Assembly (NCBI GenBank): GCA_902765225.1
Contig: CACWYV010000002.1
Location: forward strand, 4,697 to 68,696
Length of the DNA: 64,000 nucleotides
Direction of reading: 5' to 3'
Origin: Candidatus Avelusimicrobium intestinale
GTDB taxonomy: Bacteria > Elusimicrobiota > Elusimicrobia > Elusimicrobiales > Elusimicrobiaceae
Shown here: one piece after another, positions 13,375 through 16,179 of the stretch
Layout of the letters: the number at the start of each line of letters is the position of its first letter
Position numbering within the stretch: the first letter of the stretch is position 1
The notes under the pieces: generated by a model
Database searches by the model: none
What the model was told of the DNA's origin: nothing
The model's input: the letters and a program-made list of their open reading frames with translations, nothing else
Position numbers and translations under genes: made by a program

Positions 13375-14286
13375 ATGGGAGTTTCCGTAGCAGAGTATTT
13401 TGGACAGAGAACAGACGCAGATGCAAGAATTACCCCAATTAGTGATAGAGAGGCAACTTGCCCATTTTCTTGCGGTAATGTTTGTAAGAAGTTAAAGAGC
13501 AAAAATAAACCAATATGTTCTGTTAGAAAACCAGATGGTACATTGTGGATAGTCTGTTCCGAGCGTCTCTGTTCTACCAAAAAAGATATCCCATTGTGTC
13601 AGCACCAAAAGGACATATTACTTGATATTGGTAAACATATTTATAATCCATCAGTTACACCGAGAGATTTGTGCGTCAAACGGGAGGAGCGCTTAACCGT
13701 TGTAGAAGGTACAAAATATAATGCGGATTTTATTATTTCACTTAGAGATGGTCGGTCGCAGTTTTCCGGACCGGATAAGATGGTATTGGAAATGCAGGGT
13801 GGCGGTGAAACGACAAATACAGGCGACCTAACAGAAATGATACAGGCATGGGAAGACAATTCACAGCGCACGAATGAGATGCTGCGTGCGGCCTCTAATG
13901 CCTCTACCCTTGAAACAAATGCATGGAGAAGGCAACAAGAGCAATTTATCGTAAAAGGCAACATCGCAATGAAAACATGGAAAGGGTACGGTATTGCTTT
14001 CTGTGTTGGAACTATCCTTTTCGATTATCTTAAAACCAAATTGGCTTCTGCAAATTTACCCGATTTAAAAGATTACAACTGGACTTTAGCTCTAATCGGT
14101 ATTAAAGAAGATGTTAATGCACCTATTCGACCTGGGCCAATTCCATTATGTGTTGACGAAGAAAGAATGTTATTTACAAATTACCAAACCTTTGTTCAGG
14201 CACTAATAAACCAAGGAGAGCCATCTTTGGATGCTTTTCGAGGATGGTTCGTTGACTTGGAAGGGAACGAGGTACAGATTCCATAA
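13375..14286 (+). CDS. NotI-like restriction endonuclease
   Basis: The start is set at ATG 13375 (MGVSVAEYFGQ), five bases after GGAGG; an upstream TTG is in frame but overlaps that site. 303 residues. The N-terminal part has CPFSCGNVCKK, then CSVRKPDGTLWIVCSERLCS (about 29-70): the cysteine-rich iron-binding and recognition region characteristic of the NotI family. The nuclease core has NADFIISLRDG near 117 and MVLEMQGG near 136, a D...ExQ variant of PD-(D/E)xK. NotI itself cuts an 8-bp GC-rich site; the specificity here is unknown. It is convergent with a C5 methyltransferase, across a shared terminator. TATAAT at 13341-13346 is the likely promoter. Confidence 0.85.
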   Translation: MGVSVAEYFGQRTDADARITPISDREATCPFSCGNVCKKLKSKNKPICSVRKPDGTLWIVCSERLCSTKKDIPLCQHQKDILLDIGKHIYNPSVTPRDLCVKREERLTVVEGTKYNADFIISLRDGRSQFSGPDKMVLEMQGGGETTNTGDLTEMIQAWEDNSQRTNEMLRAASNASTLETNAWRRQQEQFIVKGNIAMKTWKGYGIAFCVGTILFDYLKTKLASANLPDLKDYNWTLALIGIKEDVNAPIRPGPIPLCVDEERMLFTNYQTFVQALINQGEPSLDAFRGWFVDLEGNEVQIP

Positions 14287-14288
14287 TA

Positions 14289-14316
14289 AAAGGGAGCGTT
14301 AGCTCCCTTTATTTTT
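14289..14316. terminator. Bidirectional terminator between NotI-like R and C5 methyltransferase
   Basis: AAAGGGAGC (14289-14297) pairs with GCTCCCTTT (14302-14310) around GTTA, with ATTTTT after it. It lies in the 22-base gap between the convergent genes and reaches the last codons of the methyltransferase. Confidence 0.75.
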
Positions 14317-15211
14317 CGTACTTTTTATCTACTTCCACAATTCGATGCGCTATCCACTCTATAACAGGGACAGCAACTGCATTTCCTAGGGCTCTCCATC
14401 TATTTGAGTCCAACCCTTCGGAAATCCTTGGAGTCGCTCGTATTCCAAAGGGGTCATTCGTCTTACATATAGCATCGGAGCTGCCCCTTGAGTCGCAAGT
14501 ATACGTTTCTCCATCATTTCTATATCCTTTAGCTTGTGGGCCCGCTGAAGGGCGTCGTCCAATGCCGGCATGTTGGATAGCGTAGTAATTTGTAACTCTA
14601 TCTTTTCTTTCAAGTCCTGGGGCATAGGAATGCGTCTGGAGCTCGCTCGCTTCAGTAATGATTTTAGTTGAATTCGGTTCAAAAAGTACCTCAGCGGAAC
14701 GGAGGCTTCTATAACTTGCGACAATATAGACCCTTCTACGACGCTGGGGTGTTCCAAAGTATTTTGCGTCCAGCACTCTCCACGATATACCATACCCGAG
14801 TTCTTCCATGGTGATGAGCAATCGTCGGAAGTCATCTCCTTTTCTGCTATTGAGTAACCCCGGAACATTCTCCATAAGTACCCAACGAGGTTTGTGCTTT
14901 TTTGCTTTGATGAGTTGAGCGAACATGTAGAATAGTCCGCTTCTTGCCCCTTCGAGACCTTTTCTTTTCCCTTGATTAGCAAGCGATAAATCTTGGCAGG
15001 GAAAACCTCCGCACCAGAGCTCTGCCTCAGGGATATCTTCTTCTTTGACGTCATTAATATCACCTTCCAATTGCACCGTAGGCCAATGTTTTTTAAGAAT
15101 TTTTCTACCAAATTGATTGATTTCGCATTGGAAAACAACTTGCATTCCTGCACGTTCTAGGCCCAAATCTATGCCACCTATTCCGCTAAAGAATGATGCT
15201 ACTCTTAACAT
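14309..15211 (-). CDS. C5-cytosine DNA methyltransferase, cognate of NotI-like enzyme
   Basis: 300 residues. Motif I is FFSGIGGIDLGLERAG at 7-22; motif IV has the catalytic Cys in CGGFPCQDLS near 68-77; motif VI is MENVPGLLN near 112; motif VIII is TPQRRRRVYIVA near 152. NRWRALGNAVAVPV (motif X) is near 268. The segment between VIII and X, where motif IX should be, reads AICKTNDPFGIRATPRISEG. A canonical motif IX (RRMTPLEYERLQGFPKGW) lies in the +1-shifted frame of the same DNA. The gene may carry a compensated pair of frameshifts, or both frames are used. GGAGATTTCAA precedes the ATG, and TTGCTACAAT at 15248-15258 is the promoter. Confidence 0.85.
   Translation of the reverse strand: MLRVASFFSGIGGIDLGLERAGMQVVFQCEINQFGRKILKKHWPTVQLEGDINDVKEEDIPEAELWCGGFPCQDLSLANQGKRKGLEGARSGLFYMFAQLIKAKKHKPRWVLMENVPGLLNSRKGDDFRRLLITMEELGYGISWRVLDAKYFGTPQRRRRVYIVASYRSLRSAEVLFEPNSTKIITEASELQTHSYAPGLERKDRVTNYYAIQHAGIGRRPSAGPQAKGYRNDGETYTCDSRGSSDAICKTNDPFGIRATPRISEGLDSNRWRALGNAVAVPVIEWIAHRIVEVDKKYEK
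14386..14835 (-). other. Overlapping frame inside the methyltransferase with family-like motifs
   Basis: This open frame shares its DNA with the methyltransferase and runs from 15153 to 14386 in total. From MTSDDCS at 14835 it reads SPWKNSGMVYRGECWTQNTL, then LSQVIEASVPLRYFL, LLKRASSRRIPMPQDL and finally VRRMTPLEYERLQGFPKGW. The first parts resemble a small phage protein that often accompanies phage methyltransferases (from memory). The last is a textbook C5 methyltransferase motif IX. Whether it is translated is unknown. Confidence 0.35.
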
Positions 15212-15495: not shown

Positions 15496-16179
15496 ATGGA
15501 TTATATAGCAATATTTATCAACGATACACAACAAAAAATCAAGATATATACGCAGCAAATTGAAGAACTTCATTCGTCTTTCGAGAAGCTCAACAAAACA
15601 CCCAATCGGCAATTTGCACATGAAATCGTGTTTGGTTTATTAGTTTCAGAATATATACTGAAATTAAAAAAACCTACGATTGACGATGATGTGGATGCTA
15701 TTTTTCTGTGGGGACGTAAATTACTAGAAATCCTCATTGTTATTAAATATCTGTTGCGCATCAATAGTTTTAACATGCTTTCAGAATATTGCGATAGGGA
15801 TAGATATGAATATTTGGAAGGTTTATTCTATCGGGAAAAGGCAGATGATAAATTGTTTGCGTATCTGAATATACCACATTGCGATATGTCTACTCAGAAA
15901 GAAGAGATAGAACAGATCATCAAACGTCATGGCAAAAAGCCACAAAAAATGCCTTCGATGAAACAAATGGCAGAAACTGTTGATTACATGGATGAGTATA
16001 ATTATTTTTACAAGTTAAGTTCTAAGATGCTACACTTTTGTCCTTTCACTCTGAATGGGGACTCTGATTTCAATTCTAACATCCATAAGTCAGGATATAT
16101 CCATAGAGGAACGAAATATTTAGAAGAGCTTGTTGAAGGACTTAAAAGTATGTATCAAAAAACATTGGAAGTTTCCTAA
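15496..16179 (+). CDS. Protein of unknown function (resembles DUF5677 proteins)
   Basis: 227 residues, acidic and helix-rich, with no signal peptide or membrane segment. A DAIFLWGRKLLEILIVIKYLL helix region (about 68-90) and a YNYFYKLSSKMLHFCPFTL segment near 170 carry a conserved-looking Tyr, Ser and His pattern reminiscent of DUF5677-type proteins; I hold that likeness loosely. It is the last gene of the small island element, between the NotI-like system and the tRNA. By context a defence or maintenance role is possible. It has its own promoter at 15391. No clear Shine-Dalgarno sequence is seen. Confidence 0.6.
   Translation: MDYIAIFINDTQQKIKIYTQQIEELHSSFEKLNKTPNRQFAHEIVFGLLVSEYILKLKKPTIDDDVDAIFLWGRKLLEILIVIKYLLRINSFNMLSEYCDRDRYEYLEGLFYREKADDKLFAYLNIPHCDMSTQKEEIEQIIKRHGKKPQKMPSMKQMAETVDYMDEYNYFYKLSSKMLHFCPFTLNGDSDFNSNIHKSGYIHRGTKYLEELVEGLKSMYQKTLEVS

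Follow-up and report, generated by a model that had tools for sequence, protein, structure and literature searches.

Two overlapping reading frames encode a probable M.EcoHK31I-type cytosine methyltransferase, with similar nested frames in phage relatives

Introduction

To our knowledge, well-supported bacterial cases of long same-strand dual coding, with both frames under selection, are rare. The closest described system to the locus studied here is M.EcoHK31I of E. coli, which recognises YGGCCR. We take its two chains to be 309 and 176 amino acids long, and its small ORF to be nested within the large one. The E. coli locus analysed below (L021) is also nested and has the same two lengths, and going by these lengths it may be EcoHK31I itself. 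M.EcoHK31I is made of two polypeptides, the large one carrying motifs I to VIII, a predicted target recognition domain (TRD) and motif X, and the small one motif IX only (PMC3404938). M.AquI is another two-chain C5 methyltransferase, split inside the variable region (PMC3404938).

The window, meaning the whole stretch of 64,000 nucleotides that was analysed (Candidatus Avelusimicrobium intestinale, contig CACWYV010000002.1), contains a C5 methyltransferase gene in which a sequence-only reading had placed a canonical motif IX in the shifted frame. The two options it offered were that frameshifts had occurred as a compensated pair, or that the DNA is genuinely dual-coded; it mentioned neither the M.EcoHK31I precedent nor the adjoining restriction gene.

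Results

The working frame encodes a C5 methyltransferase without motif IX

The following features belong to the working frame, called alpha (window positions):

14309..15211, minus strand: alpha subunit, C5-cytosine methyltransferase, 300 aa (PF00145, phrog_363, AF2/Foldseek)
14720..14746, minus strand: motif VIII in alpha (QRRRRVYIV), from sequence
14456..14593, minus strand: conserved block of alpha that separates motif VIII from motif X (TNYYAIQHAGIGRRPSAGPQAKGYRNDGETYTCDSRGSSDAICKTN), near-invariant in four homologues
14339..14392, minus strand: motif X in alpha (ALGNAVAVPVIEWIAHRI), from sequence

The PF00145 match covers alpha residues 3-183 only, and the rest of the protein lies outside the Pfam domain. 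The PHROG 363 match spans residues 1-299, so that the alpha frame is family-like up to its end. Motifs I-VIII and X are present, with VIII and X canonical as had been claimed, and motif IX is absent, which is the content of the large chain in the M.EcoHK31I type. An ordinary single-chain C5 methyltransferase (PF00145) would have IX between VIII and X in one chain, and the gene was rejected as a member of that class. The block at 14456..14593 is probably the target recognition part, by analogy with the TRD of M.EcoHK31I (PMC3404938). The AF2 model of alpha has a catalytic domain of the M.HhaI fold (best Foldseek match M.HhaI, E 1e-15), and its VIII-X region is undefined. Divergent from the methyltransferase, at 15496-16179 (+), lies a gene for a DUF5677 protein (PF18928, E 6e-11).

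Motif IX lies in a long nested frame

The +1 frame within alpha contains three features:

14386..15054, minus strand: putative beta subunit, 222 aa, +1 frame, carrying motif IX (open frame kept in L002, L003, L021, L013 and L150; synonymous constraint)
14407..14469, minus strand: motif IX in beta (VRRMTPLEYERLQGFPKGWT), from HMM score and from TIGR00675 and PHROG matches
15059..15066, minus strand: Shine-Dalgarno-like AAGGTGAT upstream of the beta ATG, from sequence

The shifted frame is free of stops for 255 codons. Beta lies wholly inside alpha, from an ATG at 15054 to a stop at 14386, so that the shifted-frame feature first placed at 14386-14835 is real and larger than proposed. The segment likened to a small phage protein (SGMVYRGECWTQNTL...VPLRYFL) and motif IX had been treated as separate resemblances; both are indeed in the shifted frame, where they form one continuous ORF. 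Beta holds RRMTPLEYERLQGFPKGWT, and its stop comes six codons later.

A motif IX HMM built from 22 other methyltransferases gave 40.6 bits in the +1 frame and -2.2 bits in the alpha frame. The +1-frame motif also aligns with positions 276-300 of the TIGR00675 profile and with a number of PHROG profiles for methyltransferases (best E 1e-7). Beta thus carries the motif expected of the small chain in the M.EcoHK31I type. A single-chain methyltransferase profile, PADLOC PDLC03272, has collinear matches in both chains, first in alpha (1-179) and next in beta (179-218).

Programmed ribosomal frameshifting could be imagined to fuse both frames into a single polypeptide in which motifs I-X follow one another, as the frames overlap and IX sits between VIII and X in single-chain relatives. 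The ribosome would have to shift twice, once to leave the frame and once to return. In three loci, moreover, a Shine-Dalgarno-like element precedes an ATG that belongs to beta, and the known relative functions as two polypeptides (PMC3404938). We regard this explanation as very improbable.

The Shine-Dalgarno-like element AAGGTGAT ends four bases 5' of the beta ATG. It is identical in L002, reads GGAG in L003, and is weak or absent in E. coli L021. AF2 predicted a confident helical core for beta residues 110-190 alone, with residues 1-100 unstructured and motif IX as a low-confidence helix. Structure comparison of the predicted core with the PDB gave no match. The model is compatible with beta folding on alpha as a partner, and is no proof of it.

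The open frame is not due to chance

Synonymous codons were permuted within alpha and the +1 frame was then checked for stops. For the window, the beta frame stayed open in none of 5000 shuffles, with 7.4 stops expected; the corresponding values were 0/5000 for L002, 0.3% for L003 and 0.06% for L021. The third frame has 19 actual stops across the beta stretch. In 2000 synonymously shuffled alphas, the motif IX HMM score did not exceed 19.2 bits. Chance as the source of the open +1 frame is excluded by this shuffling.

Both frames are kept in homologues

Alpha and beta were both retained in three further loci. The products of L002, from a Clostridia MAG, are 81% (alpha) and 66% (beta) identical to those of the window, and those of L003, from a Collinsella MAG, 69% and 51%. 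The L021 type was found in 81 of 5426 complete E. coli genomes; its alpha (309 aa) is about 61% identical to the window's and its nested beta (176 aa) 52%, at a DNA identity of 69%. The beta stop is at the same place in all four loci. The ATG position is common to the window, L002 and L003, whereas L021 starts about 50 codons further downstream, the window beta being longer by 47 N-terminal residues. Since these residues are missing in E. coli and weakly constrained elsewhere, the exact beta start is uncertain and less secure than the beta core. The RefSeq annotation of the E. coli L021 genome examined has alpha alone, beta missing.

The IMG/VR phage locus L150 is of the same alpha/beta type, and L013 is a longer version with a beta of 313 aa. 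A search for beta in genomes of the same genus and the same phylum gave no second full-length case, indicating that the system is sporadic. The 4.8 Mb genome that contains L002 (G341) has about 16 further methyltransferase copies, each with a +1 ORF that resembles beta and is about 134 aa long; in these extra copies (e.g. L026, L028), motif IX matches lie in nearby long frames of about 570-800 codons. For L026 and L028 the frame that holds motif IX is that of alpha.

These comparisons bear on the first option of the sequence-only reading, a frameshift pair, real or from sequencing error, that replaced motif IX and left the shifted frame as a fossil. Such a pair would account for a working frame without motif IX and for IX in the +1 frame between working-frame VIII and X. 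Yet the arrangement recurs in four independent genomes, complete E. coli chromosomes included, which excludes sequencing error. Beta is open and conserved (66%, 51% and 52% identity), whereas stops would accumulate in a fossil frame. Within the overlap, moreover, the third codon positions of alpha are frozen. With both frames intact in the homologues, a compensated frameshift scar is refuted, and we give this option hardly any weight. Close homologues that keep the working-frame segment with no conservation of the shifted frame had been named as the finding to look for against the two-frame claim; the homologues retain both frames.

Synonymous sites of alpha are constrained within beta

The third codon position of alpha is the second of beta, so that a synonymous change in alpha nearly always changes beta. 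Between the window and L002, third-position identity was 0.74 for the overlap, 0.44 for the remainder of alpha and 0.37 for the restriction gene. All pairs gave a higher value for the overlap than for the restriction gene. At conserved alpha residues, the same codon was used in 54-69% of cases in the overlap, 25-50% in the small alpha flanks and 36-43% in the restriction gene (Fisher p per pair for the excess, 3e-9 to 1.5e-3). Because the E. coli beta starts later, the alpha stretch that it does not share serves as an internal negative control; in E. coli comparisons this stretch was unconstrained (0.386, versus 0.38 in the restriction gene). In the other three loci the N-terminal extension of beta showed mild constraint (0.505). 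Alpha synonymous sites are conserved solely within the beta overlap, which supports dual coding, the second of the two options. As in the M.EcoHK31I type, a small ORF is nested in another frame and both frames are under selection.

It could be that the +1 ORF is conserved merely through conservation of alpha, and is not translated. A conserved alpha protein does lend the +1 frame some conservation, and shuffled alphas can reach as much as 19-28 bits for motif IX. But synonymous shuffling of alpha destroys both the openness of the frame and motif IX, alpha-synonymous constraint rises inside beta only and drops right after the beta end, and the same rise and drop are seen in phage relatives picked on alpha alone. 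This makes a passive origin a slim prospect, if a shade less slim than frameshifting or a fossil frame.

A restriction gene adjoins the methyltransferase

One feature lies on the opposite strand, convergent with alpha:

13375..14286, plus strand: convergent type II restriction endonuclease, 303 aa (PADLOC REase_II PDLC03464, E 2.7e-85)

A convergent restriction gene stands beside the methyltransferase in all four loci, and its E. coli homologue is annotated 'NotI family restriction endonuclease'. The methyltransferase is thus adjoined by a cognate type II restriction gene, as expected of an M.EcoHK31I-type locus. Pfam, NCBIfam and the sequences of the PDB held no useful match to the restriction gene, which was identified through PADLOC. 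The recognition site may be that of M.EcoHK31I; avoidance of YGGCCR in 400 kb of the host genome was not clear (CGGCCG 0.89 and TGGCCA 0.94 of expectation). In contigs C1 and C2 of this genome (G000, 400 kb), TCGA (0.15 of expectation), GATC (0.41) and AGCT (0.45) are strongly avoided, unrelated to YGGCCR.

Beta-like frames in phage methyltransferases

The beta core (SLSDILE...YFLSxKACxGILRRAxKRGKxLP) matches at least 576 places in IMG/VR. In all 80 loci fetched among these matches, it overlaps a C5 methyltransferase in the +1 frame of the latter; motif IX is in alpha in 51 of the 80. So that beta would play no part in the selection, a second phage set was drawn using just motifs I-IV of alpha. 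All 41 loci of this set with a canonical motif VIII match the beta model and have no stop in the +1 frame over 100 codons or more; the median open length is 164 codons in the +1 frame and 29 in the +2 frame. A fixed 130-codon stretch is open in 33 of 40 of these loci, where shuffling predicts 1.1. Codon conservation, averaged over non-independent pairs, rises from 0.28-0.43 upstream to 0.49-0.64 within the beta core and drops to 0.33-0.37 beyond it, and alpha protein identity over the second half of the core is just 0.31. The dmt gene of phage P1 also contains such a frame, an unannotated 163-codon +1 ORF with the beta core (L114:1222-1710). In most of these genes motif IX is outside the beta frame. 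C5 activity of P1 Dmt is recorded just as 'perhaps'.

In a second phage clade, alpha ends in RVDRLRGLGNAVVPQ or similar, and about 14 loci have their motif IX (LNPTWVEWLMGFPIGWT) in the +1 frame. The clade includes L154, L164, L166, L168, L173, L175, L179, L183, L184, L186, L187, L189 and L192, and also L015 and L016. An LNPTWVEWLMGFPxGWT-like motif IX closes the long +1 ORF there, and the alpha frame is without IX.

Other arrangements were seen. In L005 and about 20 IMG/VR loci (e.g. L040, L042, L057, L063), alpha stops soon after motif VIII, and an ORF of its own further downstream, which in many cases uses the beta frame, carries motif IX, together with motif X in L005. In Mycobacterium phage Thibault, the methyltransferase locus is interrupted by an HNH endonuclease gene (gp104, L111:1465-1710); the beta-like ORF persists there as an annotated gene in its own right, and gp105 holds motifs IX-X.

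Among the papers available, none was found that deals with how widespread the nested ORF is in methyltransferases of phages, and this breadth looks under-recognised; translation of the short phage ORF is putative. On balance, and with some reserve, we favour the view that C5 methyltransferases of a large clade from phages, plasmids and mobile elements, P1 dmt among them, are as a rule accompanied by a second protein encoded out of frame, which mostly goes unannotated; most of these enzymes have IX outside the beta frame. EcoHK31I-type enzymes would be the case where the nested protein also carries IX, and the second phage clade would show the same displacement of IX.

Discussion

The locus is best explained as a type II restriction-modification methyltransferase of the M.EcoHK31I kind, with alpha and beta co-encoded and beta supplying motif IX, to which we assign a probability of about 0.93. 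The anatomy of the locus, conservation of two frames, selection on two frames and the adjoining restriction gene were all observed here. One DNA stretch, read on the same strand, would yield the two proteins. Alpha would bring AdoMet binding, the catalytic PCQ and ENV motifs, motif VIII, the TRD-like block and motif X; beta, read in the +1 frame from an ATG inside alpha, would supply motif IX on a separate chain. Beta may dock on alpha, where motif IX would organise the target recognition domain, and cytosine methylation would need this assembly. The assembled enzyme would shield the host from the convergent restriction enzyme.

Dual coding here would complete the motif set of an enzyme, and gene annotation usually overlooks the second, hidden protein. 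As RefSeq lists alpha alone at the E. coli locus examined, a methyltransferase cloned from that annotation should not work if the nested frame is lost, and beta would not survive a codon optimisation of alpha. The conserved +1 ORF across phage methyltransferases raises a testable question, whether it is an unnoticed subunit or a regulator.

Among known systems, the nested genes of Streptococcus phage MM1 are annotated 'C5 methyltransferase alpha/beta subunit', the +1 ORF being beta as in the window; unlike in the window, motif IX (RKLTPRECWRLQGFP) is in alpha and absent from beta. The small chain of M.AquI carries IX and X, whereas the window keeps X in alpha, and a split of the M.AquI type was rejected on this ground. 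M.EcoHK31I divides the motifs between large and small chain exactly as the window does; the window beta differs in its 47 extra N-terminal residues, its own ATG with a Shine-Dalgarno-like element, and another host lineage. The breadth in phages is the more interesting part of these results; the window locus itself joins the known M.EcoHK31I architecture.
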